From assembly GCA_914767715.1 (NCBI GenBank), contig OU612071.1:17418948-17482947 (forward strand): 64,000 nt of DNA, written 5' to 3'. Both the position numbers and the translations under genes were made by a program. Position 1 is the first letter of the stretch. Each line of letters starts with the position of its first letter. This document shows positions 10,360 to 45,939 of this stretch, piece after piece. The DNA comes from Membranipora membranacea (lineage: Eukaryota; Bryozoa; Gymnolaemata; Cheilostomatida; Membraniporidae). The notes below the pieces were generated by a model. It saw nothing but the letters and a program-made list of their open reading frames with translations, ran no database searches and was not told where the DNA came from.

Positions 10360-10417
10360 GTGAGTTGGTTAAAAATGTTGGTTAAAATCCCAATGGTTAG
10401 TCACATCGTGGCAGCGA

Positions 10418-22734: not shown

Positions 22735-22880
22735 TATATTGGTAAATGATCTTATGATCACACCATCAGATCAAACAAAGTTGTTAGATATTATCATTGA
22801 TAATAAGTTGAATTTTAGTAGCCATATTGAATATCTAATTTCTAAGTGTAATAGCCGATTATTGTTAATGAATAAAACGA
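22735..22880 (+). mobile_element. Non-LTR retrotransposon fragment, deleted copy
   Basis: Encodes ILVNDLMITPSDQTK followed by DNKLNFSSHIEYLISKC. Compared with 12,480-13,005 it keeps about 20 bp more at the left but has lost about 420 bp on the right, rejoining copy 1 at AAAACGAGCACGACATTTC. Confidence 0.75.
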
Positions 22881-23214
22881 GCACGACATTTCAATGTTAT
22901 CGAACCTTGGTTTGATAGAGAATTGAAAGGAAACCAATACCAATACCAATTAGTATATCACTTGATCAGTGTGGTCAGCAGACCTATGGTTGTGTCATTG
23001 GAGATCGAATAACCGTGCCCACTTCGATTTTGCAGTAAATCTAAAACGTCAACTGTCTTCAGGCTTGAATTATAATTTAGTTTTATATACTTAATTATGC
23101 TGACACTGATCTGTAATTTCGTTTTTGTTCCCAGCAGACCAAGCATTAACCTCTCTGGACATGAGTGACTGAATGGAAGGAAAAAGTCAAAGCAAGTGAA
23201 TCGATTGCAATAAA

Positions 23215-23496
23215 GTGCAAAACATCATATTAGTGAACAAGGAAACAGTGATATTTGAGTGCAACCGGTATGAAGACAGAGATTTAGATTCTAGTCAGGC
23301 TGATATAATGTATTATGTACCATTGACAGATTATACACAGAAGTACAAAGCTGTCCAGCATGCTGTGAATTTCTTGCTCCTTCCACTGAGAAAAAAATCG
23401 CTCAATCAATATGCCTTCTTTTCTTCTTTATCTGAAATTTGTGTACAGCCACTATTAGGATCAAACTTTTTAATTTTGCCCTATTTGATGCTTTGA
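23215..23496 (+). other. Short ORF, copy-2 partner of 13,380-13,700
   Basis: Still open over 93 codons despite a 33-base and a 3-base in-frame deletion relative to copy 1. No recognised family. Confidence 0.25.
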
Positions 23497-24809
23497 GGTT
23501 TCAATCACCCAAAGAGTTATCTGGACTGGCTATTATTATTATTATTATTTCATTATTCTTATGCATTATTTAGATTACCCATTGTTATAAATTACGTCCA
23601 GCAGTATCAGTAACTGCTGCAACTTCAGTCATGTGCTACTTCATACACCACTTTTACATGTATTGATAATTATGGTTGCCACAGATTTGAAAAATGGGTT
23701 GTTGACTTGACAGATACTTAAAATAATAATCCCATCTTTGACACTTAAATAATAGAACTGCGAAAGCATAACTCCAATTTAGACCCATGTTTCAAAACTA
23801 CATACATGCGATGTAGTTTTCGATATGATAATCAGCCACTGGATGGACCGATGCTAACTCTCTAATCTGACTCGCAGTCACATCCACTCTCCTGGCCCTT
23901 GATTGAGTGAGGCCCACTCTGTCTGGCCTCCCCAATCAGCAACTGATCTTCAGTCGGCCAGTAAAAATCGGGTGTCAGAGGCATGCATTTTTGACATTCC
24001 TTTGCACTTATAACTTAGCTCCTTGTTTATCATTGAAATATGAGGTATTGTTATCTTTCTTGTGATTCAGCTGTTCTTGATCTCTTGGTTTTCACAGAGA
24101 AACATCTCTCATGAGGAATTGCCTCTTGCTAGCCATCCTGAGAGCTGTGTTATTAATTAAAATGGTCAAACAGTCAAAGACAATTGAAAATTCCTGAAAT
24201 TGTCCAATCACGTCATTTTGTTTCCGCAGAGCCGCTCAATCTGTGCAGATTCTAGTTCCACGTCCTTAGTAACGCTTTATCAACCAGTAAAAAGTTGATC
24301 AAAGTACAGGAACAGTCACAAAGGTATTTTCGAGTTTTTAGGCTCAAATGAAGGGGTGGTGAGCAACCTGGGCGCTCAAGGGAAAATCCGCTACTGCAAT
24401 CAAACATTATTAAGGAATCATTCAACCCCTCTTGTTTCACTATCTGCTTTTACTAAACTGCAAATGGTGTGGTGTTTCTAAAAACTTTTATTTTTTTGTG
24501 GTTAAAGTGCTAAATAAGCTGTATTTTGCTAATATTAAGTTAATATATAACACTACTGCTAGCGTAAATAAAAATCTGCACAATTGGAATCAGGAGGGTC
24601 ACACAACCAAGCAAGTCCAAATATTTTGTGATAGCGCAAAAGTATTGAATGATATTATTAGGCGCAACTCTGGTATATATCCTGAATCAACATAACACGG
24701 ACAGATTGGTGAGTGAAAAGCATGAAAACTTTGTAAGCAATAAATGTTGATAATAGTAAACATCGGATTTGATAACGTGCTGAAAATGTGCATACTCAGC
24801 CTTCAATGA

Positions 24810-25061
24810 TCAAGCAAATGCAACATATGCCAGTGTAGATATGTGATATGACAATATTATGATGAGTAGCCAGACACATGCAGTATACGAAAATGAGGTT
24901 ACAACTACTGTTATTGTTGAAGGGTTAGTAAAGTAAGTAAGGATATGCTTTATGATAGGACTGTAAACTAACCAAGCCATTATACCATAGCTTATGTCAA
25001 AGGTAGTTGATGCCACAGCCTTGAGGACGATGATAGATATCCCATCAAAGTATTGATCCAT
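24810..25061 (-). other. Hydrophobic ORF, copy-2 partner
   Basis: The 83 codons match the C-terminal part of 15,014-15,400 with changes such as L to M, R to K and I to V. Upstream the frame is broken by short indels near 25,070 and 25,125. Probably not a working gene. Confidence 0.2.
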
Positions 25062-26170
25062 TGCCAGATAGCTAACGAATATAGATTACAGGAATGGTCT
25101 TAAATGTGCTCATAATAATGTTATCAAAAGACTAAACTACTATAAAGTTTTGTAATCAGCTCAGCACGGAGTGAGCGTAAGATGAATAACAATTCAGCAT
25201 GCTGCTAAATTTTGTATAAGTCAGCAAAATGTTAATATGATAGATAGATGGAAATATTGATCTACTAATATAGTTATGATTGTGGAAATAAATGTTACAA
25301 CATAGCTTATGACAATGGTAGTTTTTACCATGAAGATAAACAATCATAGAACTGATCCATTGCCTGAGAAATAGATATTAAAGTAAAATGTGATAATGCG
25401 ATAAATATTGGTGAGTCACACATAATCACCATGATATAAATATGCACTAGTTAAAAATAATGATACTCTACTATTGGAGTGATAAGCACTATGTACATCA
25501 CAATGTCGACTCTGATGACATTGTGTTTGCAGGTTGCAGATCGGCAGTATGCACCAGCAGGATTAGTCCATGTATCTCAAAAACCTGTGAAAAATTATAT
25601 TGTATATGTAGGATTGAGGTGGGAAAATAAGCGGACATTCCAGTTAACAGATATATCCAACTACAAATTTCAAAGTTGATACCACAATGATCAGCAAAAA
25701 AAATTCATGATACATATAATGTAGGAGTAACACCATACCTAGATTAAAATATCAGGACATTGAATGCTTGCTGCTCTTCTGCACACGACGAATCAAGGCA
25801 ATGTGTGAAAGGTGTTGAACATTTAAACGAGAAGGCATTTTACACTACCCAAACCAGCAATCATCATCTGACAACATTTACTCATGTAAGATCTTGCAAG
25901 GTAAATTGCATTGTGTTTTTCTCCGGAGAGGTATTTAATGTGAGTCAAACGCTGATGATTGAGAGCAATAAACTACCATATTGCGGAGGAACGAATTATT
26001 AATGCTATATCTAGTTAACCTGAAAATATCCTGCACCTCAAGAGAATATGCACATTACTACAATGCTTTAAGATGAGTCAACTATGTTGATGAACAGTTA
26101 GTAAAATAAATGAACAGTATTCCTTGAAGATTTAAAAGATAGCACTCTTAAATTTCCACTCACCAATCCC

Positions 26171-29100
26171 TTAAAGCTGGTTTGGATTCTGTACATTATT
26201 TTCTACTCTGAAGCGCCTCTGTGTGCTTACTGGTTTCTCATAGCCTGCATACTTTTCTACTACCTTAACATCTGTGGGTAGAAATAAGAAAAGTGTATCA
26301 GTATGCTTAAGATGATTAAAAGGCCTTTGTTTATATTCTTCATTACATTTATTAACCACCTCCAATGTCTACTCTGAGTTTGCCAAAACAGAACACATGT
26401 TTCTTAGTTGATTGTGGAAGCCTAAACTTTTTATCCGAACACTTGGGGAATATTGTTATTTCCCTTAAAGGGCAACCAAGGTTTCGCAGCAATGCATTAA
26501 TGGGTATGAAATAATGTGCTAGGCATCATCAGCTTTGTGCATTACGCGATGCAAAACTCAAAGTAGTTGCTGACTCTAAGCTGGGTAACACTTCAGTTTA
26601 GGGGAGGTTCCAAGACTTTGCTGTAATAATTAAAGAGCACAGGCTAAATAATAACAGGAACAGGAAACTGCTATGTGGTATTCTCTTTTAGCTGAGTTTG
26701 AGCGCCTGATGGAAAAAATGTTTCACAAGAATTCTGGCTGAATAATCATCCGAATTATATTTTGTCTGTTTCCCCATGCAGAAGGTGCAATCTGCTATTA
26801 ATCAATGGCCATCAATGAGAAGTTGTTTGAAACCTTGGTTGCCCTTTAAAGGGCAACCAAGGTTTCGCAGCAATGCATTAATGGGTAGGAAATAATGTGC
26901 TCGGCAGCATCGGCTTCGTGCATTACGCGATGCAAAACTCAAAGTAGTTGCTGACTCTAAGCTGGGTAACACTTCAGTTTAGGGGAGGTTCCAGGACTTT
27001 GCTATAATAATTATAGAGCACAGGCTAAATAATAACAGGAACAGGAAACTGCTATGTGGTATTCTCTTTTAGCTGAGTTTGAGTGCCTGATGGAAGAAAT
27101 GTTTCACAAGAATTCTGGCTGAATAATCATCCGAATTATATTTTGTCTTTTTCCCCATGCAGAAGGTGCAATCTGCTATTAATCAATGGCCATCAATGAG
27201 AAGTTGTTTGAAACCTTGGTTGCCCTTTAATTAGGACTGCCTACTGCTCTGATAATACACCATTCAAAGTATTAATAAGTTGAGTATAGTCACTGACCAG
27301 GATCCCAGACGAGTTTAGTTGTTCTCTCATTCTCAGATGGTAGCTGCTGATTAGCCTCAGTGATGGTCTCAGCTGGAATGTCTGTTCTCATGTTGACTCT
27401 AGGATACAGGTATAGCTTCCTGCCGTGTGTGAACGTGTTCATAGTAATGGAGTTCTGTCCATATTGAGGGTTACTTATGCGCTTACTAAGAGCTTCCCGG
27501 GTACTTTTTATACTGGACTCTCTTGTTTGTTCCTGGATCTATAATGTCAAAGAGCTCAACACCACATTGTTGATGGACATTCTCATATAACAATTGTTGA
27601 TGTTCTGAGCAGTGTGAATTCCAATTTAAATTTAATGCCATTTAGATATAGCTCTTCTCAGTGGATGAATGAAAATCCGTGATTACTGTGTTCAAGTCAT
27701 GGGGACTGGGTGTAGCTTACTACTGTAATTCCTCACCTATAACTCGCGTATCAAAGCACAGCTTTTAAAGCCAGGCTGAATAGCTCAGTGTGTAAAGTGC
27801 CTGCCTAGTAATCACTGTTTATTAGGAATGTTGCGGGTTTGAATCCCAAACAAGGCCAGATTTTTTTTGACATGGGTGCTTTATAACTGGAGCATTTTTA
27901 CTTTTCCCAAGGGGGGTGTCTTATAAGTGAGGAATTACGGTATATACAGAGTTTGACTTTTGACCTTGAGCTGGACAAGCCAATCAAAAGCCCGGTGAAT
28001 TGAAAATGTGACACTGTTGCCTAGTAGCTAATCAAAACAACTTGCAGTGAAAGGAACATAAATCAGGGACACGCTGCCTGAGCTGACTGGACTAGTGGAC
28101 TGACTAGCTAGCTAGCTAGAACATTTTTGCTATACATATTCCTGAACAGACTTTGTAAAATTGTAAGATACTCCGACAATTTGTGTTGTTGGCAGTTTTC
28201 CGGTTTTATTCAGACACAATATACATGACCCTAGCAGCAAGCTGCCAGGTAAAATCCAAATTGCGACTACTCCATTCAAAATGCCGCTAGCAACTGATCT
28301 TTATAAAAAATTCTACTTTACATTACAGAAAGATTTTGCAGGATTTAATTAAGGATGCTCATTCAAGGATGGTACATGACGGTAGCAATAACCCTCAAAA
28401 CCCTCAAAACAGGAGATTGGGCTTCCTAATTAAGCATGATGATGATGATATAAAGAGTTATTTAGGAAGTTATCAAGTAGCATAATCTGTAATGCACGGC
28501 AAGCGGAGATTCACTTAAAGTACACTGCACAGTAATGTTGAACAACCAACCGCCAATGGTGGATAATGTGGCATACAGGTACAGGGGTACCTGTATGTCA
28601 CAGAATCTCAAATCAAAGCTTGTCACTCTTGTAGAATCTCAAATCAAAGCTTGTCACTCTTGTAGAATCTCAAATCAAAGCTTGTCACTCTTGTAGAATC
28701 TCAAATCAAAGCTCGTCACTCTTGTAGAATCTCAAATCAAAGCTTGTCACCCTTGTAGAATCTCAAATCAAAACTGGTCACTCTTGTAGAATCTCAAATC
28801 AAAGCTCGTCACTCTTGTAGAATCTCAAATCAGAACTCGTCACTCTTGTAGAATCTCAAGTCAAAGCTATTATTTGTTTGTTCATGTTATATACATGTAT
28901 AAACACATAGCATAGTTTGTACATGGGCCCTCACAGTTTTCTATCAAGAAGAGACTGCTTAAAGCGCAGAATAATTAGTTTCCCTAATCGGTACCGCTCT
29001 GCTTTCCGTTCAATACATACGAACACTAAGCAGGGTTTGGGCTATATATATAATCGTCTTGTCTTGTTTGTTTACCGTAATCTTCTACTGCTATTGAGTT

Positions 29101-32100
29101 GTTTTCTGAAAGTACCCAACAGCTCAGTGAGCTATTGAAATACCTCTCTGATTGCACTATTTAGCTACCGATATGCAAAAATTTCCGTGGTGGGAGCTTA
29201 AGCACCCCTCCCACACCCTCCCCGCCACGCCTACTGCATGTGAATAGGGCTGCGCCCGATCATTATGCTCATCTCTAAAAAGTCAGTTTGTGAAATTTTT
29301 TAGAATATACGCCCCTGGCTCTTCTCATACAGAGAAGGAGAGAATGTTGAAAAGAGGAAACAAGATTGTACTCACTATTTCACCAAGTCTCACTAAGTCC
29401 TTCCTACCAGCTAGTTTGTAAAAGGCTGAGACAAGAATCCTGATAAACGGAGAACCCACCTTTGGGTCTCTAAATGAGCAATTTCCTGTAAGCAAAGAAC
29501 AACATTCAAGCTGATTGTGTTGAAATAGTTGTATGACCAGTAGCTAGAGCATATCACATTTTGAATGTGTAAGACAATGCAAAGTAAAAGCTTGGTTAAC
29601 TATGTCTTCGAGTATATGTGAACTGATGGCAATGTGACAGCAGTAGTACTGTCTTATGGGGGGAGGGGGGGGGGTCTGAAACTTCTCACAAAACATCTTA
29701 ATAGCACACACAAACATAGCAATGATGGATAAATACATAATTTTGATTTGACACATTCATTTGGTAGGTGATAAATGAATGGCGCTAAAGCTGACGTCCA
29801 TACACTGCTCACACTTCACCTGCAATAAGGTCATCAAGGTGCCTATCACTGTAGGTAGAAAAAATGTATATATATTAGAAACAGACCGTCAAAGCTTGGT
29901 TTCATGACAAGAAGATCATCAGTAGTGAGATGAGCAGTAGCTGCTTCCTCATTAGAATGAATGGGATCCTGATTTGGCTGAAAATCTCCAGTTGCTATAC
30001 AAGATAATGAAGATTAATTAGTAAAAAGTAAAGGAATTGGAATGAGAACAGAGTGCTGAAAATAAAAAAGAAACAATAAATTTGATTATCCCAAACAAAA
30101 TCATGAATGAAGTTTTAAATGACACTATAGAGAAACTGATGCTGTTAAAAGATGAGGTCATGAATATGGTCAAGTAATTTTCTACCGGCAGTTTAGACTA
30201 GTGGGACAAACGTCACTTGACAGCCCTGTTTCCTAATGTAAAAACTATTTTCAGATCACTCTACTGGTTCGAATTTCTGTTTATGATCCTCAAAATATTA
30301 CATGATTTTGTAGGGTCACTCTGCTGGGGTAGGTTGACATCCGATGGTTGTTCACTGCTACTTGATAATCGTGGAACCGTAGTAGGAGGTTCTGTGTCCG
30401 ACTCTGTTGAAGAATCTGAGTGCGGAGGGCAGGGGTGTACAGATTGAACATCGTCATTAGCAGGTTGATCCTTTTTCAATGTACATCCAGAAGAATGCAC
30501 ACTGTTCGCACTACCATCTAGCTGCTCCCTCTCGGCTTGAAACAGGGAATGACTATCATTCATGGGAGGCTTGAGTAGGAGAGCATATCAGGAGTTCCAT
30601 GTATTGATTTATCCTCAAAAACTTATAAATGACTAATTCTCAATAAAGATTGCATTGCCAAGTGTGCAGTATGTTCTGAAACGAAAATTGACTGAATTTG
30701 TACAATGTTACTGAATGCATAATTTATACTTTCTTACCTCCACTACATGCCTGTGAAATAACAAGCTTTGGTTTTCCAGCCATAGAAGGGAAACTTCTTG
30801 AGGAAAGAAGATGTTTGTAAATGTCTCGTAGCCTGATCACAATTCCATCACTACCAGCTATTGTGCCGTTACCTCCATGACTCATGATGACAAGAGCAAA
30901 CATCCCGAATGATCTGTGAAGTGATGCTTTGGTCTTTGTATCTACTAACTGTGTCTCTTTGTAAATTGTTTCAACAATATCCTACAATGAATTATCAAAA
31001 CGAAATTTTGAGTGAAAGTCATTAGATTAATTTTTCATGAAGATAACTTTTTAGACTTAATAATAGGTGCAATGAATGGTATTTTGCTTCAATGAGTTCA
31101 TGAAAGTGTCCCATATCGTTACATACCACCCTACCCTCCTCAAAAGGCCGCACATGTAAAGCATCTGTTTGAAGCTACAAAGCATTCTAATGATATGACA
31201 GGAATATCAATGTTCAATACCTGAGCGGTCCAGTCTCTGTCTCTCCCAATGCTGAATCCACTGATGATGAATCCGAACTTTCGAAACATTCTCTCTATAT
31301 TGTCATAATCATATTCAGAGCCTACTCTCTCCTTCAACTTTCCAGAAACACATCTGTTGTTGATGATGAGCACCCGTCCTCTTATTTCTGTCATCCTGTA
31401 ATCCTATAATTCAGAAAGAAAGCAACAACAGATTGTTTGTGCCAGTATCAAGGCATGGGCGTGTATGATGACCTCAAAAGGAGCATATTCTCAAATTGTT
31501 CACAAAATATTCTTTGATTTTTCACTTATTCACATCGGTTTTTGTTTACTTTTTCAACTTTGTACTCAGGCTGGAGAGCTTGTTGAGGTCTCGGATCCAG
31601 TTCAATGATACTCTTATATGTGTTAAGAGCATCCATGATTTCATCTCCTTCAGTTGGCTTGAACTTTCTGACATAGGACATGTAATTGTCCCGTTCGTCT
31701 GTATTCATGACTGTGCCTGGTAAAGGTTAGAACATAGTTGTAACAATACTGTCATATTGTAGGCTGGAAAAGGACTCACTCAGAATCGCTACAGCTGGAG
31801 ATAGACATGGGTGAAGAAGTGCCAAAGTAAGAGATCCGCAATCAAACTTTATTCATAGCAGTGTAAGTATTAGAAAAATTGAACTGTGTTTTGTTGGCAA
31901 AGTTGGCACAATTATGCCATATCGTTGTTTTAAGTCAAATGAGTGCTATCTTGTCAACAGCATGTGTCATGGTGTGGTCTATTTATATGCATATTGTTCA
32001 GATGAGATAGATGCCCTGAGTTTTGACTTTAGCTTGGATAGGTTGGTATTTCTGTGTGAGACAATTGATTTTATATGATTGTTTATAGAATAAAAGGAAG

Positions 32101-35100
32101 GGGCCTAATGCATGTTGAAAGAATAAAATATAAAACACTTTTTCAACACCTTGAATTCGGCAACCATAAGTCTTACTGAAGAGTTAAAACATAATAATGT
32201 AACCTGTCAATAATATACTCACATGGATGAACAAGACAGTTTGGAATACCCTCCTGATGCGGATGATGTTGTTGACAGGGCACAGCTTTTCCAATCTTCT
32301 TACATAGATATACAGGGTCGGTGTCTATGTGTGGATGTAGCTGATCTGTAAGCGTGCAGTGTGCACATTGCACTTCGTATGTGATCTGTGCTGCCTTCCA
32401 TACTTGCTTTACTTCCTTGTCCAGCTGCTCAACCGTTTCAAGCAAGATCCCCCAGCATGTCTCAATAGCCTCAGCATCTGCTTCAACTCTCAGTAGAATC
32501 CTCTGATCTTCTACTTGATGACACATATGTACATGTATCTGCATTTTGCCGTTTGTGAGTTTTGCAGACGAACCGTTGCCATAAATGTATAGCTGGTCTT
32601 CTGATTGGTTGCTCCCTTTCTTGAATTGATTCATAAAACTCACAGTGAGTTGGTTGTATGTGTACCTTGGGACAGAGAGTCCAGTGAAGATCATAGATAA
32701 TTGCAAACTAATATCATTCTTTGCAATAGATGCACTGCGAGGCGGCATGAAACATGGAATTGCGTACGTATCTATCTTATTTTCCTTGGTCGGTCCGTAT
32801 ATGAGCTGGAATTTCTTCAGAAGGGAAACTGCAACGGATGCAGGGACTGGCTTGTCATTTGTCCCAGTTGGTGATAAAAGACGATGGAGATCATGTTCTG
32901 TGATGATACCTTTGGACCATTCGCCGTTCCAGTTACATTCACTGGCTTTGTGATTGAACAACTTATTGATGACCTCTGTGACTTTTGGCATGTTGTGATA
33001 TATTTCATCTTCAAAGCCTTCAGACTCTATCTTTCTTTCTCCATCCTTGTCTGTCACAGCCTTATGGTACCATAAGATATCCCCGCTGCGCTTCATGTAT
33101 TTTAGAATTGCATCTAGCCTAGCAGACTTGTGTGGACCGGATTGGAGGTCGCTGTACCGTAATATTGGTTCCTTATTTTCACGGATTTTCCTGATTTCAT
33201 CCATCCAGGTGTTTGGAATCGTGGAAACATGCGATGCTAGCCTCTTGTACAGAGTACGCTCTAAAGGTGTGAAAATGCTCACATAACTCGATGGTGACTC
33301 TGGGTATCCTATTTCATGAATGTCTTCATTTGCAAAGAGCTTTGTGTCAGGCTCGCGCAAAATGTCAATATCGGATGCGATGTCATTATCGAGGAGGAGA
33401 TCCTCTTTAAGTTCCTCGATGGTTTGCAGGAGCGTTTTCCGTAATCTTTTGAAGTTGACCTTCTCCGATTCAGATTTCTGATATTGATCCCGGTGTGTAA
33501 GAACCAAAATAGGTCGCCCAAGATGTGTGCAACTTAGATACAGATGTGCTATCCAGTCGAAGACGATTCTTCTAGTTGCCTCACGGCGTCCCCACTTCCT
33601 AGCTTCATTCTCAAAGTCTTTGATATTGACCACCACAACAGGAGTGCAGTCATCTCTAAATGTCAGCTGGTATGAATACTGGTATACCTCGTCTCCTCCA
33701 AAATCAATAGCTTTCACTGAAAGGGGATCATCACCTTCACATCCCACTGAAATTTCAACAAATTCAAACACGCTGGTTGTTTGGTCGTCAGTCGCAGCTG
33801 CTGTCCTATCAGTTTTCGAAAATTTCTTGTTCCGAATACTTTTGATCACACTGGATTTTCCAGCCATACTCCGTCCGATGAAGGCCAATGTCGAAACAAC
33901 TAAGTTTTCTTCACCTAATGCCAGATCTGAGTAATACTGCTTTATGTCAGTAATTTCACCTTGGGATATCGCATATGGGGGCTCAACGATGTTTATGCAG
34001 TCGCTACAGTCCAGTGTTTTGAGAGGTGACTTGTTAAGACAACGATTTAGCCTTTTCAGTGTTCTGTTTCCTTGAAGATGTAGGTATTCGAGCTTAGGAA
34101 AGTCGTTTATCCAAGAGGGAATCTCTGTAATATTGTTCTCCGCCAATCTAAGGGTCTCGAGATGACGGAGACACTGTAACCTGAAACAAATACCATGGTC
34201 AGGACAAGTCGAATTTGTAAGGTGTGCTACATCAATATTATCTTGGTTAAGTCATAGCAAGCTTGTAAACACTATCAAACGGCCCGTCGAAGCATGCATG
34301 TAGCATGATGATGTGAAATAATAGCTAATTACTTTTGGTATTTGGTATCTTAATTCAGATACCTGATGAGAAGGTATCTGAGGCAGGGTGGCAGTTGATA
34401 ATGCTACCAAGCTTTTGCAAATAGCTGTTGTTGTCTTAACATGGGGAGGGAAATCAAGTCTTAAGCAGTTTTCAAAAGAAGAAGGTACAACACCCCTATT
34501 TGACCAATGATGGGCCTGTTGAACCACCGCTCGAAGAAAAATAAATTATAAATTTGATCAAAAACAAGATAGGAAAGATGTATTATTGCATTGGTGAGCT
34601 GTATAATACTATAGAAATATTTTCAAATGTGTAAGGAACTGAAATTCGAAAATTAAAATGATCTAAAATATTTAGCATAATGCATTTAAAGCCTGCGATG
34701 GTGTCCATGTTGGCAGTAGAAAAGTGCAGTAAAAAAGGGTGAAATTTCAATTGGTGCTCTTTCCAGGGCTGTAAAAAAGTTAGCAATCCGCAGGATTTGA
34801 CAGAAGTGATATATATTTAAAATACAGGTTTTGGGCTACATTTTGGGTGGTTATTTATGGTGAGTATGAGTAGCAGGCCTTTGGAGCTAGCAAGACAGCA
34901 TGATTCATATATAACACAATGGGGAAATAAATAGAGGTGTTGTACTGAATATTAGATGTTGTTGTGCGTCCGAACGGTGAAGTAGGTGTTTGATGTCGGC
35001 AAGAAGAGTAGGATAAAGTAGGATGTCTGTCTAATAATTAGCTTGTTCAAATCAAGGTACTGCATGAACCATGTCATGCTGTTCTCTCTGTTGTCTTTTT

Positions 35101-38100
35101 TCCTGCTGGCCAGCCTCGCTGCTCACAAAAGTATACAGTTTGAAGTAGGTCAGTCGTGGTAAGTCCAACAAATTTCAGCTGTCCTGTGTTTGTGAGCTGT
35201 TTGTAGGCAAAGAAATTCACCTATTCAGTTGTGTTGGTGAGTCCGGAGTTCTGTTACTACCAATGGTAGTATTAGTGCTGGGTTTTTCTTTTCAATTAGT
35301 AGTCCTCTCTAAATCCAATGCACTTTTCTTGATTTTATTTGTCTATAGGATAATTTTATAATGTGCTCTGAAATTATGTGGAGCAGGGTGACCCTCCACG
35401 CTGTCTGTCTGCCGAGCATCACCTGTTAGCTCACCCTGACAACTACCCATGGCCGATAGCTGCCTTGAATAGAATATTCAATACTGGTAGCACACTCCTT
35501 TTAGATTGGTGGAAACCTTTTTATTGGTTACTTTGTCATAAATATATGCTCTGAAGATGTCCATGATGAAAGACTCTGTTTGTCTACCTGCATCTATGTT
35601 TTTGCTAATGTCAGCTGCGAACACTACTAACTGCTTCTTATCTTATCTGTATTTAGTTGAGTTTGTGCTTGGAAGGAAAGTGCTCTCTAGTTTTCAGCAT
35701 AGTCTGTTGTGAGCCTGGTAGATCGTGTATGCCCAACCTGTTCAGAATTTACCCACTTTTATTTAGGGATCATACCCATTAGCCACACCACGTTCTCAGA
35801 AATTTTTGATGTTAGATAGATATTGGGGAATTTCCATTCCTGCATTAGAGCAAGAATTGGTCTTTTTTATAATGATATAGCTAGGATTCCAAAAGTGAAA
35901 GAATACTGAAGACAATGTAAACCTTGTATTTTTATTTGCACAAGACGGGAAAACATTTTCAACTTTTTTCTGTTTATAGGGTGCAGTGGGCCAAACCACA
36001 TGACCATTTTGCCAGCAGTCTCTCAGTACTCTCGGGACACATGGTCGGGGCCAGCAGCTTGCAGAGGGCTATTGCTTCAGCTATTTTAGTATGTTTGATT
36101 CATGCTTTGGAAAAGACAAAAACTAATTGCATGTTGGGTTGGAGCTCTTTCTTTGGAGTAGATGATATGTTTGTGTTCATCTCTTAATGTAAGCGTATTT
36201 GAGATTATGTTTGATCTTCAATGTTTAACGTAGCCAAACGTACAAATGTAACAAAGTGCCCAGATCTGACTTCCTTAGTTTCCTTGTCTTCAGTGAATAG
36301 GTTGCCACATATTTTGCTCCCTTTAGCCAATAGAAGATCATTATGGTACTTTCAGGAATGTACTTTATCACTTTGACGATGCCGAACGTTTGGTAAATGA
36401 GGTATAATGCATCAGATGAAAATTTGGTGACAATATGGGTTTGATACCGCAACGCTCAAGTCACTGTGCCAGTGCTCTACCAATTGCTCTAAGAGATCAA
36501 GTGATGATAGTAAGCCTTAGCAATAAATGGAGATGGAGATGGAGGCCAGCCCAAAGCCTACTGTCAAGAAATAATAATGACAATAATAACGTATGACCTG
36601 CCATTGGTTTTTTACTCCAACCAATCTGATCCAACAAATAAGCTAACAAATAGGTAAACCATGTGCTGGTTCTGTTTAGCCAATGCAAGGTCATAATGTT
36701 CTTTTCTGGAAATCGCTTGATTGACCGTGTCATTTCCTACCTTTTGATGAATATGAGATCATGCATAAGGTGAAAGTTTGGTGTTCTGAGTGGGTTGTGA
36801 GCAACGACTTAATCAATAAACAGATCAAGGCCAGTCAAAAGGTACTTTCAGGACAGCACCATATAACCTGGCATTGGCTATCTTACATGACACAACCAAT
36901 TAGAGCCAACACATAGGCTAGTGAATATGTTGTGGTGATTGAATCATGAATTTTCCTGAAAAGGAGTTTTGGGAATGAATGGTTTCTTCTTTCATCTTTT
37001 AAACTTCCTTTGATCGTGCTATCTCAATTTTTGGCAATGTCTGTCAGCTTCGAATAGACCGAGCTATTCATGACTGGTCCCATCACTTGGGAAGAAAACA
37101 TTCATGGCTCCTCATAGAAGGGTTTGACCTAGGTCTGAAATTAGTCTGGTGTTGGTATGATCCCTTTACCAGGTAACCTAGATTTTGATATGCTCCCCAA
37201 GCAGCCATAGTGCACCAGTAGAAAGCAGATTACCCAAAGTGCTAGGATTCTTTTTCTTGGTTTCACAGCAGTCTCCAAGTAGGCTATGCCATACTCTCTT
37301 ACACCCATGATCACCTAAGTCCTGCTCACTTGGTTAGGTACATTGGCAGCTTTGGGCTTGGATTGCTCCGTATAATTTGATTAAATATCTCTCAAAATGG
37401 TACACACATTTACGTACCCTTCAGGAAGCGCTGAAAGTCCACAATTTGACAGGTTCATCTCTTTTAACTGCAGTCGAGCCTTAAGATTCTCAGCAAGTTT
37501 GCTATCATTAGTCAACCAATTCCCACTGATGTCTAGACTTTCAAGATCTGGCAGCTGTAGGCTAGGGAGACAAAAATACTCTAATTGATGTTTTGATTAT
37601 ATGACACAACCAATTAGAGCCGACACATAGGCTAGTGAATATGTTGTGGTGACCAGTAGAAAGAGTATTACCCAAAGTGCTAGGATTCTTGTAGTTGGTT
37701 TGACAGCAGTCTCCAAGTAGGCTATGCCATACTCTCTTACACCCATGATCACCTAAGTCCTGCTCACTTGGTTAGGTACATTGGCAGCTTTGGGCTTGGA
37801 TTGCTCCGTATTCTGTGGACCCCCTGACCTTAACAAGCAGTGGGAGGATGGGTTAGAGAACTTGGCAGTGAGAGTGAGAACAATCATGTCGAAAAACAGC
37901 AATATTTTCAACCAGAGCAGCAAGACCAGAGCTAGACTGCAATGTTGGCCAATGAGCAGGAGAAATACAATATTGATGTAGCTGCACCGTCATATGAGAC
38001 CTGACATGCTTGATATGGATATGCAAGTGCCTAGCGAGAAAGCTTTTCTACTCGCAGCTGAAGATCTGAGACTGTGAAAGCTGATGAAAATTACCTACCC

Positions 38101-41100
38101 TTCAGGAAATTCAGAGAGTTTACACCCTGAGATGTTCAAATCCGTCAGCAGTTTCAGACCACTTAGCTTCTCTCCAAGTTTTTTATCATTACTGAATACG
38201 TTCCCACTGGCATTCAGCTTTTCAAGACATGGCAGCAGTAAACTGGAAAGACAAAAATAATCTCTTTGATCTTAATCTTAAGCTTGACCTTATATTGTAA
38301 TCTACTTAAAAGATGATTGATTACCCAAAAAAAGTGTTAAGGATGTTAGTTTTTGTTCTGGAAGAGGCAAAGATCAAGTCAAGTGAGGTAATTTGATTAA
38401 ATATCTCTCGAAATGGTACACACATTTACGTACTCTTCAGGAAGCGCTGAAAGTCCACAATTTGACAGGTTCATCTCTTTTAACTGCAGTAGAGCATTAA
38501 GATTCTCAGCAAGTTTGCTATCATTGGTCAACCTATTCCCACTGATGTCTAGCTTTTCGAGATCTGGCAGCTGTAGGCTAGGGAGACAAAAAATACTCCA
38601 ATTGATGTTTTGATTATAATGCTGTGTCACCTTACATCAAACTTACATCAATTAAGGTAATAAGTTTTGCATCACAAGATAAATTCGCTTAACACTTGAA
38701 ATGAACATGGATCCACATACTTTTGGGGAAGCTTAGTTAGTTCACAATTTGATAGGTTTATCTCTTTTAACTGCCGTAGACCATTTAGCCCCTCAGTAAG
38801 CTGATTATGATTAGTTATCCTATTTCCACTGATATTCAGCTTTTCCAGATAATATAGTAGTTGTATGCTACAAAAAAAGAAGTTCACTTGAATTGATGCG
38901 AAGATGATCATAAGTAGCACCTTACATCAAATGCTAATGTAATTTATCTCGTAATTTTGGTATCTCGTGTATCTGGCCAAGTGGAGGACTCATGAATGAC
39001 AGTTCTCAGTCTGTGAGAGTCAAGCACACTCTCTTTTACACTTCATTGGCATCTGCATCTTTTTTCGAGAAATGTTTTTAAAAAATGTCATTATATAAGA
39101 AACAAGAAAAGGGTGAATCAAAAAATATGATTGACTGGTTATAGATCATAATTGTAGCATGTGATACTGAAATAAGGCTTTTTTAAAACAAAACTGTTTA
39201 GAGACGCTGCATAAAGTAACAGGCCGAGAACTAAATTCAGATAAAATCATATAAGGTTAAGCTTGTTGAAAAGCATACACAGAACTGAAGTAAGTTTATA
39301 AAGAAACTTCATTTATTACCTGGATAGGTTTGTATTACATTCTCGAAAAAAGTGACATAATATCTACATACCCTTTGGGAAACTCAGATAGTTCACACGT
39401 TGACAGGTTTAACTCTTTCAACTTCCATAGACGGTCTAACTTCTCAGCAAGCTTGTCTTGATTCAACAACTTAGTTCCACTGATATTCAGCTTCTCTAGA
39501 TAGGGTAGTTCCAGACTGGAATAATAAGCGATAATATGATATCAAATTTGCTGTGACACTTTCGATATTAACATTGTTTCTGCAAAACCTTCAGAAGACA
39601 AATCAAGTTATATTTAATTTCGATTCTCTGCCTTGGTATTGATCATGGTTGACTGGAACATCTTAAAACGGCATATTTTTCAGGTACAACAGCCCATCAA
39701 AATTTTGTTACTCCAGCCAGGTGAAAATCAATATTAATTTGAAACAAAATAAAGGAGTAGAAGATGATAATCCTGTTAGATTCACAGCCAGCCCTTAAAA
39801 GCATTCGGGATGGCGATCGCGGCCGTAAGCGGTCGTTAACGACCGCTTAAGGCCGCGATCGCCATCCAGAACACAATTTTGAGATGTCAAAACAAAAAGA
39901 TAATATACAGAACAAATTGTCGTTATCAGCGACAGATGCTACATAGGGTTTTCTGGGAGCGACGTCATCCGATAATTAAAGGAGCACATATTCTGTTTGA
40001 TCGACCAATGTGCGTGAAAAAATAGAACATTGTAATCATATAAAAAATTGCTGAATGTACTATACCTTAAGGTATCAACATCTAATGATGACCCTTCAAG
40101 ACGTAACTCTTTCAGGGAGGAAAACTGGACTAGGATTTCCATTAATTGAGTATTATCTTCCCACCCCCTAAACAGAAACAAAATGGCAAATAATGATTAA
40201 AACAGTGATACCTCGACCATAAGAAATGATTGTATCTTGATCGATCTGATTGTACTATGATACATACAATTGTTCTGCTGATGGATTGAAATAATGTGAA
40301 GTCACATTGTAACCTTGCTTGTCAATGTTCCACTGTGTTACAAGATTCTGGATAAAACCACAATAACTGGATCAGCCCAAAAATCACTCAATTATCCAAA
40401 ACTCAATTAATTCTTATAAGCACAAGTAAGCAGACATCTATCAATGTTGACAACTCTTTTGCATTACTGATGTCAAGTATTTGACGATGATGATGACACT
40501 TCCCGGTTGCTATAATAATTCTGACAACCAATTGCTTAATGGAGTGTCTCTGTCGGTCAAATTTACTGTGGCCTGACATTGAATATTAATAAGGCCATGA
40601 AAGGTACTACTTTTATGTATATTGAACGTAAATTTTAGACATATCATTTACCGGGCTCCACTTTTCACACAAATGTGCCGTATAGATTCTCTCAGTGATT
40701 CACTAGGTCGACTGCGTAGTAAATCTTCATGTTCAATCCTAAGATGTGTGACAGCAGACTTGCGTCTCATATCTATATCCATCAATAGAGTCCCTGTTAA
40801 ACCGCTACAACTGTTAGCTAGACTTCCATGCTTGCACCAATCATCACCTGGCTCCGGATCATTCTCTTCTCTCCAAAATGCTTCGTCGATTGTGTAGCTG
40901 AAAATACCAATCACTACGATTTTATGATGCGTTGTCTACGCTAGGTATTTCTATTTGACCAGAGTTATCCTCTCTCTCTCAACTGATTATTAACCATGGG
41001 CACATAACTCTAAATTACTATAAATACACTCCTTTGACCCTGCATATGATTTTTGTCAGCGCTCTCAACCACTCAGATTTATCCCGAGTTACTTTTTGGT

Positions 41101-44100
41101 TCTACTAATGCAACTCAGGTTATTTGGGACAATGAGCTAAAAACTCCTCATATTCATATGAGATTTGGAATTCCTCTCAGTGTGGTCTACTTGTATGATT
41201 ATAAAGAAACATTTTGACGTTGTAATAATATTTGAAAATCGATAACCAGGATGCGATTAATAGTGATGCTGATGATGGTCTAATCTCTAAAAAAGCAATA
41301 TAATTCATCTGCAGATCCCCAAATTGCTCTCTAGTCTTCGGCGACTGGACCTGCTAGGATGGCTTACAGAGCACCCATATCCCCAGCTGTTTATGAACAG
41401 GGCATTTTGGGCATTTGAAATGGCACTTCCTGACACACAGTAATGCAAAATGCAAGAGATGAATCCTCCTAGGTTGAGAGCCCTGATATTGGGTCTTGCA
41501 GTAATCAATGTGAACAACTATTTAAACTAGTATGGGTGGCTGATATCCCCAATAAACACTATGCGAGCATTCAATATCCTCTAGGTATTAAATGTATGTT
41601 AAATCAACAGTTGTAAACATGGTGAAGAGGGTGGGCTGTATAGTCATTTGGTATTTATCATCAAAGAGTGAAACTGATACACTTTGTATCCTTATTGTTT
41701 CTGCCTAAATTACTAGCTTATTAAACACCTTACCAATTCTGTAATTAGTCCCAGATTTGTGTCCCTTAGCATTGGCTTGGCATGGCATTGGCATTGGCAT
41801 TGTGCAGCCTAGCTTAGCATAGAAGCTGACAACAAAGGATTGCCATCAATAGTTTTGTAGGAGATCTAAGAATTCCTGAATTTGAATCTTCTGTTTGTAT
41901 CTTTGATCCCTAAAACTGTTGGTATATTGACTAAATTATTGGAGCCCAGACTCATTCTTCGACAGTGTGAGAATACAGACATTACCACCAATCAAATTAC
42001 AATCTATCTGCTGTTATTATTACGCAGATTAGGATTGGTATTTTTGATACATAGGACCTCAGAACAATTACCATCATGAATGACAACTAAGTGAAAATCA
42101 CCGAACACTATGTGCATGGGAGTGATTAATAGCTGATACTCCTAGCTAATTCTTCATCGTGCACTTATTCTTAGATTCTTACTCTCTCTCTCAAGCCCAC
42201 TTAGTAGGCGAAGAAGTTTCCTTCTACAATGTGTCATCTCAAAGTATCTGTTTGTGATTGAGTGAATTAAATCTGGACGGTTGTACTACATTAATCTTCA
42301 GTATTAAGTAGCACTGAGAAATAGTTGTGTTGTGTTGAATATGAATACCAAACAAATGCTTGCCCTCTAAGTGACTAAAGGATTTAGATAAAAGACGCCT
42401 GTTTTGACCAAATTACAGCGCCCCACCTGGTCTTATTCCTACCCTCAAGGACTTTGATTTTGCCTAAAACTTTTCTACATAATCAGCATAATATCATGAT
42501 ATTGAAAACAATGAAAATATTCTACTAACGTTGCATTAAAAGGGATGCAACTGGGCTCTATCAACATCGTCTCGCAGGGCGGTATCCTAGTATACGGCCA
42601 CACTGGCCTAGTTTGAACCCAAAGCTGCATAATACCTGGCCATTTAATTCGCTCTTATTATTATGAAAATAAAAAAAATATTAGATGATGTGTGTATTGA
42701 CATTGCCAATTTTGTACCTGTATGAATAGACAGTCAAGCTTTCGCAGTGAATTGCATCACCCAAAATAATCGAAGGTTTTGTCAACAAAGCATCTGTCAT
42801 TTAACACAAATTAAACTGATGCCAAATTGTCTCAAGATTTAATTCCTTCTAATCTGTGATTTTCTGTTGTTTTTTTTCTAAATCTGTGAGAGCTCCATAG
42901 TTTTCAACCATACAATTTAGCTGTATCTGCTGAAGCTGAATTTAATTGATCTCCCTAAGATAAACGCATCATTGATATACAGGCAGCTAATTGAGGTGCA
43001 GTCGTGGGGATTTAAAATGGAATATTTATGTCATGCTTAATCAAATCGATATGCCCTTGATTGTATGATGAGATAGATCTTAACAAACAAAATCCTGAAG
43101 ATTCCCCCCTCCCGTATTTCCAGAAATGGTGTCACATTTTCGACCTAAACAGGGATTTTGAGGATAATCCTACTTAATAACTGCTTTATGTGGCTTCACA
43201 TAATATTAAGAAAGACTTTACTACTGTGTGTTAAATGAAAAAGACAGGATAAAAGTCAAAGTCAGGTGACCGTGACATTCACATATGAAGTCAATTTAGT
43301 CCGATGGCAGCCTATGCAAAATGTGGCTAGAAATGCAACTTCATTAACGATTTTGTGTGGATAGGGTTTGACAGTTGTTTCTGGTTCCTTGCTGATCGCA
43401 ATGGCAATATTTGGTCTCCTATCATAAATAGCTAAGATAAGTCCAACAACAGTTGCAATACCCCCTTATATCACCTGCATACTACCGTAATTAAAGCGAA
43501 ACTCCTTTTTTAATTTTGCTGCCACCCCGAAAACTGGCTGAGAATGTTCGTGTAGATCTGATATTTTTATAGTAGTTTTTAGTGTCATTACCGATGACCA
43601 GAAACTTTTTTCCAGAACTAAGCACTTTTTTTTATGATATTGTTGGAGCTAATTTTTGATTTATAAGCTATGTAACCTAATAAAAACCATTTCAATGGAA
43701 CTATGTTGGAAACTTAATAATTCATACTATTTGAAGAAACATGAACATTGCAAACTGGTGGTATGCGATGGGAGTGTAAATAAACGGTCACCAGATTAAC
43801 CACCCAAAATTGTAAATGGAAAGGAAAAGATAGGCGGAGCTGCCACCGGACTAATTTATGCAAAGGTGCACAAGATTTATTTAGTTTTATTCTTTAGGTT
43901 ATCTGCTTGTGAACTTTCACTCTCCGACACTCCTCCAAAATACAGACAAATTGATTTTCATGGCACTAAATTGCTCTTTAGGCTTACAGTGCTCCCCCCA
44001 CCAAACCCTCCAGCTGGGTTTACTCAGCCAACTCAAGCCCTCGGTGTGCTGCTATGCTGCACAGGATAGTCAGAATGGCAGGGTAGCAATTTAAAGCTAG

Positions 44101-45939
44101 AAATCCCTCCTGTTTGTCGTGATAAAATATGGTTTGCAATGATTTATTTTGCACTTAAAATCAATTGACTGCTGGCAAAACTGTTACATAAAATTACTGT
44201 AAGTGTTTCAGTAATAAAATGTTAAAAACGAATAATTGAAAATCTCTTAGGAATACTGCTGCTGTAGTGGTTGTAGTGGTTTGCGGCTGGATGTACTTAG
44301 TTTTGTGATTCCTTATCAGGTTGATTTGCCTCCAAGGTTTGTTAATTCAAGTGGGTACAACTCCAAATTCAACTCAAAATAATCTAGTGTAGACAGCGCA
44401 TTGTAAAGTCGTTGTGAATGGCACCTCGATAAATGTTAATAAGGCCAAAAACTCCCTAATCTCTATTGAGAACTTTTCCTTACATTTTAACCACATCTAA
44501 CCTTTTGAGATTGTGTGCAGATCCCTGCTAGAAAATCTCTAAGACAAATAAAATAATATAATCTTGGTAACACCCCATGTTATTCAACAGCGAGTAGCTT
44601 TGGCCAGTCACATAAAAACCGATGATGAATGAAATGTTAGGATTATATTGGTGGACGCTTTAAGAACAGACAATTATTGATGAGTAGTCAAAATGTGCAT
44701 CATGAACCAATCTAAAAAATGACAAACTTTTCTCAGGCCTCATACAAGCCACAGTACATTAAGTTAAGCAAGTCCAATTTTATTAGTTTCGTGTGAAGTT
44801 ATGTGTGAAGTAAAAGTTTCTAGACTTAGTTTCTTTGCGTTTCGCTTTTATGGAATCGTATAGAAGGCCTACGTTATTGCCAAATTTTGACCAGTTTAAG
44901 GAGCAAAGCTGCATCAACCGGTAACCATCAAAGCCTCCTAAACCAATAAGCACCACTATTTTCATCTGTTCTGAGAACATCATAATTATGACTAAAACAC
45001 ATATTACCATAAGGAATTCAAAACTATTGCAGTACTAATTGAGCACACAAGGTCTTTTCTAGACAGTTATCAGCGAAGTTCTGTTTGAGTTTGCTTGCCA
45101 AAGTCTACTGTTCAATTGTCACATCAATTTTAGAATTGCTAGCAACCAGGAAGACTTTATTATGAGTCTGAGTATAAATTCTGATGACAGAGTCCAAAAA
45201 CCTTTCAACAAATGCTTATTGCATGTTTAATTTCTTTTGACGGTTGTTGATTTGTATAACATCCAAATATAATTATAATAGAAATAGTAATTTGATTGTT
45301 GAAATTATGAAATTATGTCTTAAGACTTCAGCGCAATCAAGGATGTCATTGTGAATGAATTTTTTGTCTTCAATGTAAATTTTCACATGGTGAGTTACAT
45401 CATATTTAGAATATAAATTTGACAATGACATCATACGGAGTTTGATTATACCCGACTGAATCATTTCAATATTTGAAGAACTATCCGGACTATCGATTTT
45501 GTAAGTAATTGCCTTTAGCTTCTCAAGAATGTTCGTAGGTTTAGAGATATAGTTGGCTGTGCTGCTTGAGCCAAACGAAAAGTTTGTTTGTTTTCATCTT
45601 CGTAAATGATGATATTTATCCGCATAAAGGCTAGAATGAAAAAAAACAGGCCTAACATGCTTTCTGATTATGAATGGCATTGGTCTGTAGGTAGCCTTTC
45701 ATCACAAATATTAAAATGGTCAGTATCATATTTTAACAGTTTAAGGTAGGACAACTTCAGGGCTTGCTTCCAGCACCGTGATCTTGAGCATCCATAGTGA
45801 GAAGATATAGGAAGAAAAACCTTGGTTAATACTTGGAAATTATTCTACTCACGTTTTCCTACTCCTCAGACGTGGTATGGATCCAGACATTTTCTCTGAT
45901 GAGAGCTCCAATGAAAGCTGAGGCTTAATATGTGATCCT
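26171..45939 (-). CDS. LRR-Roc-COR-caspase fusion protein
   Basis: Exons, in transcript order: possible first exon 45939-45853 (ATG near 45,890); 40897-40652; 40167-40066; LRR exons 39515-39372, 38867-38721, 38577-38434, 38242-38099, 37561-37418; 34180-32223 (Roc-COR); 31716-31550; 31403-31221 and 30981-30738 (caspase p20); 30535-30302 (linker); 29994-29887, 29485-29376, 27538-27298 and 26271-26171 (p10 and tail, stop 26171-26173). Every junction is phase-consistent. The product would be about 1,484 residues: N-terminal region 1-95, LRRs about 95-410, Roc about 460-650, COR about 650-1020, helical linker 1024-1079, p20 1080-1222, acidic linker to 1300, p10 to about 1450. By family knowledge Roc-COR modules bind GTP and dimerise, and caspases cut after Asp and are activated by induced proximity. 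A cytosolic sensor or cell-death protein is therefore likely, but this is inference. No CARD, DED or Death domain is recognised. The first exon is the least certain part. Confidence 0.82.
26469..26845. mobile_element. piggyBac-type MITE, first of a pair
   Basis: 377 bp with inverted ends AGGGCAACCAAGGTTTC, flanked by TTAA at 26,465-26,468 and 26,846-26,849. The matching place in copy 1 (16,703-16,706) is an empty site with a single TTAA. There is no coding capacity. TTAA duplication with ends starting AGGG is characteristic of piggyBac-mobilised elements; the assignment rests on that. Confidence 0.88.
26850..27226. mobile_element. piggyBac-type MITE, second of a pair
   Basis: Same length, orientation and ends as its neighbour, with a handful of substitutions. 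It shares the central TTAA (26,846-26,849) and ends at TTAA 27,227-27,230. It lies in the last intron of the caspase gene. Confidence 0.88.
27721..27942. mobile_element. MITE with tRNA-like core
   Basis: Inverted ends of about 22 bp, TACTGTAATTCCTCACCTAT on the left and the complement of TAAGTGAGGAATTACGGTA on the right, next to TA dinucleotides. The interior at 27,773-27,858 has a tRNA-like A box (TAGCTCAGTGTGTAAAGTGC) and a good B box (GGGTTTGAATCCC). Confidence 0.75.
28602..28870. repeat. 31-bp minisatellite, 8.7 copies
   Basis: Eight full units and a partial ninth of a 31-base unit beginning AGAATCTCAAATCAAAGCTT and ending CACTCTTGT. Units are head to tail with no spacers and differ at a few positions, so it is not a CRISPR array. 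Confidence 0.95.
30302..31716 (-). other. Caspase p20 exons and interdomain linker
   Basis: Exon 31403-31221 opens with DYRMTEIRGRVLIINN and contains RVGSEYDYDNIERMFRKFGF, including the RxG Arg of the S1 pocket. Exon 30981-30738 contains the catalytic His in FALVIMSHGGNG and the catalytic Cys in KPKLVISQACSGG; the usual QACRG is QACSG. Exon 30535-30302 is a 78-residue acidic Ser/Pro/Asp-rich linker with several Asp residues that could be cut when p20 and p10 separate. Exon 31716-31550 is a 55-residue helical segment in the pro-domain position; it is too short for a full death-fold domain. Confidence 0.85.
32223..34180 (-). other. Roc GTPase and COR domain exon
   Basis: One 1,958-bp exon. It begins with the last LRRs (LRLAENNITEIPSWINDFPK). 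The Roc GTPase follows, with P-loop GRSMAGKSS, switch II IDFGGDEVYQYSY (DxxG kept) and the G4 motif VLTHRDQ. The COR region has IPNTWMDEI, SGDILWYHK, an LLSPTGTN segment and AIPCFMPPRSAS. The exon ends in a Cys/His-rich patch (CAHC, then PCQQHHPHQ). LRRK, MFHAS1 and DAPK1 share Roc-COR; unlike LRRK and DAPK1, no kinase is attached here. Confidence 0.88.
34181..37417. other. Large intron with repeats
   Basis: This separates the LRR exons from the Roc exon. A tRNA-like SINE lies at about 36,420-36,490. Part of the duplicated unit described at 36,887-37,812 lies at its upstream-in-coordinate end. A + frame with a possible donor at 35,980-36,090 has no family support. Confidence 0.55.
36420..36490 (-). 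repeat. tRNA-derived SINE head
   Basis: On the minus strand GAGCAATTGGTAGAGCACTG (A box) is followed by GCGGTATCAAACCC (B box). Intronic and degenerate. Confidence 0.6.
36887..37812. repeat. Local tandem duplication in LRR intron
   Basis: Bases 36,887-36,935 recur at 37,600-37,650 and bases 37,209-37,372 recur at 37,652-37,812, nearly unchanged. The sequence around LRR exon 37,418-37,561 recurs at 38,395-38,610. The simplest reading is one or two unequal exchanges that duplicated an LRR exon with its flanks. Confidence 0.8.
37418..39515 (-). other. LRR exon array
   Basis: Five exons of 144, 144, 144, 147 and 144 bp, all phase 2 at both ends, so any can be lost or copied without shifting frame. 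Each encodes two leucine-rich repeats of about 24 residues on the pattern LPxLEKLdISGN followed by LKEmNLSnCgLsalPe. Exons 37561-37418 and 38577-38434 are nearly identical, differing by a few residues. The array is preceded by a cap-like exon with FSSLKELRLEGSSLD (40167-40066) and continues into the Roc exon. Confidence 0.88.
39808..39867. other. 60-bp GC-rich near-perfect palindrome
   Basis: Two 30-base arms around the centre GTTAAC are complementary at 29 of 30 positions (the one mismatch is at position 18). The arm starts GGATGGCGATCGCGGCC. It lies in an intron of the LRR-caspase gene and is far richer in GC and CpG than its surroundings. Confidence 0.95.
40652..40897 (-). other. N-terminal exon of LRR-caspase gene
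   Basis: 246 bp, phase 2 in and phase 2 out. It encodes a hydrophilic region with EAFWREENDPEPGDDW and LRIEHEDLLRSRPSESL before the LRRs. An in-frame ATG at about 40,914, just upstream of the acceptor, would be the start if 45,939-45,853 is not used. No signal peptide is visible, consistent with a cytosolic protein. Confidence 0.75.
41057..41485. mobile_element. hAT-like MITE, family D
   Basis: Ends CAGCGCTCTCAACC and, inverted, GGTTGAGAGCCCTG. Interior words such as CCCCAGCTGTTTATGAACAGG and ATCCTCC recur at 55,574-56,699. I could not identify a convincing target duplication. Confidence 0.6.
41486..45852. other. Intron or intergenic DNA, no supported gene
   Basis: If the exon at 45,939-45,853 is real, this is the first intron of the LRR-caspase gene. 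No RNA gene or ordered repeat was recognised. Short open frames at 43,866-44,094 (+) and 44,783-45,010 (-) have no splice support. Confidence 0.5.
45853..45939 (-). other. Candidate first coding exon of LRR-caspase gene
   Basis: 87 bp between a TTGCAG acceptor and a GTGAGT donor. Its open frame, SHIKPQLSLELSSEKMSGSI and RLRSRK, joins in phase 2 to exon 40897-40652. The internal ATG could be the start. The acceptor implies a further upstream exon, possibly non-coding. Confidence 0.4.

Follow-up and report, generated by a model that had tools for sequence, protein, structure and literature searches.

In the animals studied so far, immune and apoptotic sensors recruit caspases via adaptor domains, and the NLR inflammasomes and the apoptosome do so through CARD or Death adaptors. 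We analyzed a 64,000-nucleotide (nt) stretch of DNA (hereafter the window) from the cheilostome bryozoan Membranipora membranacea, located on contig 7 at 17,418,948-17,482,947, in which the minus strand is predicted to carry a gene joining leucine-rich repeats (LRRs), a Roc GTPase domain, a COR domain, and a caspase in one polypeptide. Like the inflammasome and the apoptosome, the predicted protein has sensor repeats, a nucleoside triphosphate switch, and a caspase output, but those systems combine a NACHT or NB-ARC ATPase with a recruited caspase, whereas the window protein would combine a Roc GTPase with a built-in one.

Bacterial conflict proteins with the order LRR-AP-GTPase (Roc)-COR bear C-terminal effectors of at least 24 kinds, including caspase, in the account given by Kaur et al. 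2021 (PMC8195603). LRR, Roc-type GTPase, COR, and C-terminal effector are common to these proteins and the window protein. As described there, the bacterial proteins are prokaryotic and predicted only, whereas in the bryozoan family the caspase is of the metazoan p20/p10 type and split over exons, an extra exon separates it from COR, and the many copies share one type of effector. Because of these proteins and a sea anemone 'Caspase-8' with Roc-COR, the LRR-Roc-COR-caspase order has precedents, and the remark in an earlier note on this DNA that its author knew of no described family with this order is answered by the bacterial publication and by the Roc-COR-caspase of Exaiptasia in databases. 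The kind is thus known from bacteria and in databases for a cnidarian; in the open-licence PMC literature we found no description of a bryozoan or other animal Roc-COR-caspase, and the expanded bryozoan family is the part for which none came up there.

MFHAS1-type animal Rocos share LRR-Roc-COR with the window protein, and two proteins of the bryozoan Watersipora subatra (P0007 and P0011) are annotated as MFHAS1 homologs. LRRK1, LRRK2, and DAPK1 also hold Roc-COR in one chain with a catalytic or signaling part, which in the LRRK proteins is a kinase instead of a caspase. In DAPK1 a kinase and a Death domain take the place of the caspase, and a review describes MFHAS1 as LRR and RocCOR only, with no caspase, unlike the window protein. 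Trichoplax Rocos carry CARD, Death, TPR, AAA, and TIR (PMC4104024) and the actiniarian (anemone) NG1 is an LRR-Roc/COR-TIR protein (PMC5094078); both join apoptosis or immune domains to a Roco as here, but these are adaptors or TIR, and the passages concerned name no caspase. The legend of a sponge NLR figure includes CASc and COR among the domains drawn (PMC12909245). Brown algae have 9-47 ROCO genes per species, said to exceed other organisms reported by then, with separate LRR exons under shuffling (PMC11378527), and the LRR exons of the window are much like those described.

Gene model and domains of the window protein

We predict, at a probability of about 0.93, that the window encodes a single fused LRR-Roc-COR-caspase polypeptide, and we strongly infer one transcript spanning LRR to caspase. 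Between 26171 and 39515 the minus strand reads as five LRR exons, an LRR-Roc-COR exon (A), a linker exon (B), and seven caspase exons (C-I). Exons A-I, with GT-AG borders on exons B-I, join in frame to 1114 amino acids (aa) and a stop codon with no inner stop, and the five LRR exons and exon A also form a stop-free in-frame join. The earlier note had placed LRRs, Roc motifs, p20, and p10 on one strand and in phase, which the joined 1114-aa model and its Pfam matches confirm; the splice borders were chosen to be in frame, so phase consistency by itself is weak evidence. There is no stop codon in the joined model between 32,223 and 31,221, the interval in which, according to that note, a stop would break the fusion.

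The LRR exons are 144 or 147 nt long with phase 2-2 and were taken from the in-frame joined model and the Pfam scan, the first being a 48-aa module at 39372-39515 and the others lying at 38721-38867, 38434-38577, 38099-38242, and 37418-37561; three of the five reached the Pfam LRR cut-off when taken singly. Exon A (32223-34180, minus strand like all the others) has 652 open codons that contain the last LRRs, the Roc GTPase with P-loop IGRSMAGKSS, DFGGDE, and THRD, and the predicted COR-A/COR-B region, and it ends with a phase-1 donor within the Cys of '..HPC'. Exon B (31550-31716) is a helix-like and linker stretch leading from COR to the caspase. The first half of p20 lies in exon C (31221-31403), with YRMT..RGRVLIINN and an S1-pocket Arg position, and the second half in exon D (30738-30981), with the catalytic His (MSHGG) and Cys (QACSG). 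Exon E (30302-30535) is the p20/p10 linker and exon F (29887-29994) runs from the linker into the start of p10 (DDLLVMKPSFDG). The p10 continues in exon G (29376-29485; SFRDPKVGSPFIR), which has a further S1-pocket Arg position, and ends in exon H (27298-27538; TFTHGRKLYLYP), which adds a tail and whose unspliced frame would stop at 27292-27290. Exon I (26171-26271) supplies the C-terminal tail and the stop codon. The first exon and start codon, and any 5' exons ahead of the first LRR exon, were not found, and no gene part was confirmed upstream of 39515, so that the 5' limit of 45939 in the earlier note was not borne out; open frames at 39.9, 40.6, 44.8, 45.3, and 47.3 kb, taken as candidate 5' exons, had no Pfam family above cut-off in a scan that covered these frames of the stretch upstream of 39515.

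On the joined model, Pfam placed Peptidase_C14 (PF00656; 88.1 bits, cut-off 21.4, E 9e-25, profile positions 1-203 of 233 covered), Roc (PF08477; 29.0 bits, cut-off 27, E 1.4e-6), and LRR_4 (32.1 bits, cut-off 27, E 1.3e-7). Roc membership is marked both by this score and by the P-loop and G3/G4 motifs (IGRSMAGKSS, DFGG, THRD), all of which are there. COR-A (PF16095) stayed sub-threshold, with 18.5 bits against a cut-off of 35.3 (E 0.0019). The AlphaFold2 model of exon A (mean predicted local distance difference test score, pLDDT, 76.5; predicted template modeling score 0.78) matched LRRK1 (8e05, E 4.7e-22) and also LRRK2, CtRoco LRR-Roc-COR (6hlu, E 2.0e-19), RocCOR (3dpu, 8.7e-16), and lone COR (3dpt, 2.9e-10). 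Because the predicted structure matches RocCOR and COR structures, COR is counted as present in exon A, and we take the window protein to have a COR domain directly after Roc; the COR region proposed in the earlier note therefore stands by predicted structure (3dpu and 3dpt) and falls by Pfam alone. No NACHT or NB-ARC was found in the joined model by Pfam at E 0.01, Roc and MMR_HSR1 being listed instead, and no CARD or DED prodomain was found at that threshold from exon A onward, the first exon lying outside the model.

The window p20 aligned well to solved caspases (e.g., E 8.3e-13) and p10 weakly (a caspase-9 alignment, stretch E 0.024). The Arg of ERVGS, the Gln of QAC, and the Arg of SFRDPK line up with the S1-pocket residues of solved caspases, an Arg/Gln/Arg set that we take to bind the P1 Asp, and all nine aligned p20 exons of the family have the catalytic His and Cys unchanged. 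In comparison with L020, a paralog 69% identical in exon A, the ratio of nonsynonymous to synonymous substitution rates (dN/dS) was 0.26 for exon A, 0.19 for exon B, 0.15 for p20, and 0.17 for p10, the last three values being rough because dS exceeds 1; the linker of exons E-F was saturated, with a dN of 0.66. As estimated from these sequences, dN/dS is low on both halves, the Roco part and the caspase part. The caspase of the window protein is probably active and Asp-specific.

Relatives within and beyond the Membranipora genome

Searches of the genome (339,339,785 bases in 18 contigs) listed at least 108 Roc-COR matches and at least 145 C14 (PF00656) exon matches, and a search with p20 exon D gave the best 150 of 210 candidates scored. 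A search with the COR-A family was insensitive (9 matches), and pairing was therefore based on Roc and Roc-COR matches. We counted 107 Roc loci, 68 from the 108 Roc-COR matches and 39 from a second Roc list of 148 matches, in open frames of at least 371 aa. The other 40 Roc-COR matches were later pieces less than 1.5 kb behind a listed one and were merged. Second-list matches in shorter frames were excluded because most are small GTPases; two on contig 5, with frames of 233 and 204 aa, may represent broken Rocos.

With all 145 PF00656 and all 150 exon-D matches listed, at least 83 of the 107 Roc loci were followed on their own strand by a caspase match no more than 6 kb away. Among these matches the other three arrangements (upstream, or on the opposite strand) had none; the expectation for random placement is 0.26. 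Among the matches listed, PF00656 alone paired 55 loci and exon D alone 74, and at 12 kb 85 loci were paired downstream. Seen from the caspase side, 74 of the 150 exon-D matches had a listed Roc within 6 kb upstream, and 30 of the other 76 were on contig 1 (C1), which has no entry in our list of Roc loci. The region C1:31.5-39.8 Mb holds 30 p20 exon-D matches with no listed Roc locus upstream and forms a further caspase cluster. A region of contig 3 (C3:14.5-28.1 Mb) holds 17 of the 24 Roc loci left unpaired; these may be caspase-less Rocos or Rocos with another effector.

Twenty loci, hand-picked across subfamilies from the 108 Roc-COR matches and including eight that were unpaired by PF00656 alone, were fetched for comparison. 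The p20 exon-C motif lay downstream on the Roc strand in all of them and in the window (21/21), and the p10 motif was found in 19 of 21 (missed in L029 and L032). A scan for the exon-D motif succeeded in 20 of 21 (all but L024); it is no test of the catalytic His, because its pattern allowed D for H and in L021 caught an earlier DG. Variation of the effector between paralogs, a trait of the bacterial systems, was not seen, as 20 of 20 fetched loci, from which the 24 unpaired loci are absent, had the caspase exon-C motif. Spliced paralog models could be built for eight of nine loci tried, and the COR-to-B junction was phase 1 in all eight, a match that the method demands. COR-to-B introns measured 109-569 nt in the six loci counted (109 in L034, 161 in L033, and 162 in L020). 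After the '..PC' end of COR, a helix-like stretch similar to exon B follows in six of the eight models (all except L035 and L036), as it does in P0007, P0010, P0011, and P0012 of Watersipora.

The Roc-then-caspase order is kept between families with ~30-38% identity to the window Roc-COR, and paralogs of exon A that are 97% and 69% identical are followed by the same caspase exons on the same chromosome. Since paralogs of exon A elsewhere carry the same caspase exons, the observation is beyond chance. Judged from sequence, the window gene is one copy of a large LRR-Roc-COR-caspase multigene family and no lone oddity, and with so many copies the animal may possess numerous sensors that have the executioner built in. 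An inverted Roco-caspase copy ~183 kb from the window (L019, C7:17265449-17275448) is 97-100% identical over exons A-H.

Watersipora subatra belongs to a different cheilostome suborder from Membranipora. The window model and its 1105-aa protein P0011 align collinearly from the LRRs through to p10 at 27% identity (E 4e-118); in P0011 Pfam found C14 at E 1.8e-33, with Roc under the cut-off. The predicted structure of P0011 (mean pLDDT 69.7) matches LRRK1/CtRoco and caspase-3 in one chain, in which COR is followed by a helix and then by a tether of ~65 residues, modeled at low confidence, that leads to the caspase. The paralog models, the pairing counts, and the collinear P0011 all lend support to the earlier proposal that sensor, GTPase, and protease lie in one predicted polypeptide.

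A single-protein search with the window model returned eight proteins with Roc-COR or LRR pieces, all without a caspase, and the sole match of a similar search with L037 was P0009, a read-through of L037's own exon A into the intron. The fusions of Watersipora and Exaiptasia came up with a profile built from six paralogs. Like the window protein, Exaiptasia diaphana P0015 ('Caspase-8'; Roc, COR-A, and C-terminal caspase) and P0018, also outside the bryozoans (Roc and C-terminal caspase), are predicted to hold these domains in one chain, but neither has an LRR at E 0.01. P0015 shows scant similarity to P0011 in Roc-COR (E 0.002), and in a tree P0015 and P0018 sit on long branches outside the bryozoan group (support 93/94, short of the strict mark of the tool). 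Because of this slight similarity and separate placement, the Exaiptasia-type Roc-caspase is possibly an independent fusion.

Alternative explanations and proposed mechanism

The window alone permits two genes, because the frame of exon A stays open until a stop immediately past 32176 and an in-frame ATG occurs in exon B. A caspase-less MFHAS1-like Roco and a short-prodomain caspase starting at that ATG would then be adjacent and duplicated as a pair, and tandem clusters would copy the pair together. In L020 an in-frame ATG immediately precedes the acceptor, and 24 of the 107 Roc loci, 17 of them on C3, have no caspase match within 6 kb among the matches listed. Other points also count against a fused family. 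The paralog models were built to be in phase; the L022 model failed at D-E, the p10 exon of L033 is probably wrong, the models of L035 and L038 reach only exon F, and exon B of L035 and L036, which have no helix-like motif, may be wrong. The 83 pairs are not independent events, since the loci sit in tandem clusters. One upstream same-strand match appears at 12 kb, and the fetched loci include none of the unpaired 24 and none on C3 or C1. Two genes are nevertheless hard to reconcile with the paralogs, as the window ATG has no counterpart at the same place in L020, and in the L033, L034, L035, and L036 models neither the first 33 residues of exon B nor the frame ahead of them contains an in-frame ATG. 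The end of one gene and the beginning of the next would need to fit in 109-162 nt in L034, L033, and L020, and exon B resembles the post-COR stretch of Watersipora Roco proteins. Moreover, the annotated protein of another cheilostome suborder (P0011) is collinear throughout, and the order persists between families at ~30-38% identity. We therefore consider two adjacent genes unlikely, with very little weight to be given to them beside a single fused gene.

For the fused gene, the best explanation as a whole is that a family copy works as a nucleotide-switched receptor-protease, which we regard as likely. The LRR modules would sense a ligand, Roc-COR would then change its nucleotide state and shape, and this change would bring two tethered caspase domains together, or free them, so that they dimerize. 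The dimerized caspases would cut their own long p20/p10 linker after Asp, then cleave substrates, with death or alarm of the cell as the outcome and no CARD, DED, or Death adaptor involved. We lean toward Roc-COR as the controller of caspase activation, and to a similar degree toward a role in immune or self/non-self cell death. Nucleotide-controlled proximity of the tethered caspases is the most likely mode; given the tether in the P0011 model, two caspases could meet if two Roc-COR units come together. Among described relatives, the active form of CtRoco is the GTP-bound monomer, and autoinhibition goes with the dimer in LRRK1 and with the monomer in LRRK2 (PMC11052575, PMC10643122). The direction of the Roco switch thus differs between relatives and could go either way here, a point that tells against the proposal. 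The earlier suggestion that COR-driven dimerization directly activates the caspase is not supported as written, given these differences in active state, and stays conjectural.

Other explanations keep the fusion and change what it does. The caspase could be non-catalytic and serve, as FLIP-type pseudocaspases do, as scaffold or decoy; decayed copies are frequent in large expanded families, and QSCSG stands in place of QACSG in L020, L025, L027, and L029. This is improbable in view of the invariant His and Cys of the nine p20 exons, the S1 Arg positions kept in the window, and the dN/dS of 0.15 (p20) and 0.17 (p10) against L020, at high dS. Roc-COR could also be a separate module that does not switch the caspase, which would be cleaved off and act alone, as would be allowed by the long p20/p10 linker and by the long tether that the P0011 model shows, at low confidence, from COR to caspase. 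We hold this to be doubtful, though less so than a non-catalytic caspase, because the Roc-caspase pairing is kept across many paralogs and other Roco proteins are described as joining Roc-COR to catalytic or signaling domains.

Beyond the receptor-protease, we tentatively suggest that cheilostome bryozoans may have an inflammasome counterpart that consists of one protein. Scores of LRR-Roc-COR-caspase receptors would be switched by a GTPase in place of an ATPase, their LRR exons would be interchangeable phase 2-2 cassettes, and specificity would evolve via exon shuffling. If so, the set would surpass in size every Roco set that we found reported, and would be a form of adaptor-free cell-death immunity or allorecognition in a colonial animal. 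The 107 listed Roc loci in long open frames (loci and not proven genes, some of which may be pseudogenes) compare with the 9-47 ROCO genes reported per brown-algal species. The family would be an animal counterpart to the bacterial LRR-Roc-COR-caspase systems. Uniting a sensor, a GTPase switch, and a caspase in a single chain, it would also offer a single-protein test of how Roco state leads to catalysis, and the coupling of Roco GTPase state to catalysis is an open question for LRRK2.

Duplications and repeats in the window

A second set of exons F-I lies on the minus strand at 16408-17971 (17971-17864, 17294-17185, 17014-16774, and 16508-16408) and is 96-100% identical to the first; no second copy of exons A-E was found within the 64-kb window. 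It belongs to a partial tandem duplication between 10000-18256 and 19600-30281, with blocks 93-98% identical, which places this second intact p10 half 10-12 kb downstream without A-E. The second set could possibly provide alternative p10 exons, or be an assembly or haplotype effect. The five LRR exons lie in a direct repeat (37373-39530) of which two copies are 96% identical over 204 nt, one containing LRR exon 3 and the other LRR exon 5. This pair is a recent copy and resembles the shuffling of exons described in brown-algal ROCO genes.

Nine long open frames elsewhere in the window had no Pfam matches at E 0.01. The intron between exons G and H contains a 31-bp minisatellite of 8.6 copies (28602-28868), and that between H and I a 381-bp tandem repeat in two copies (26465-27230). 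A 400-nt inverted repeat (47345-47744 and 48284-48683, 81% complementary), with related copies near 8.7-9.8 kb, is perhaps a mobile-element remnant.

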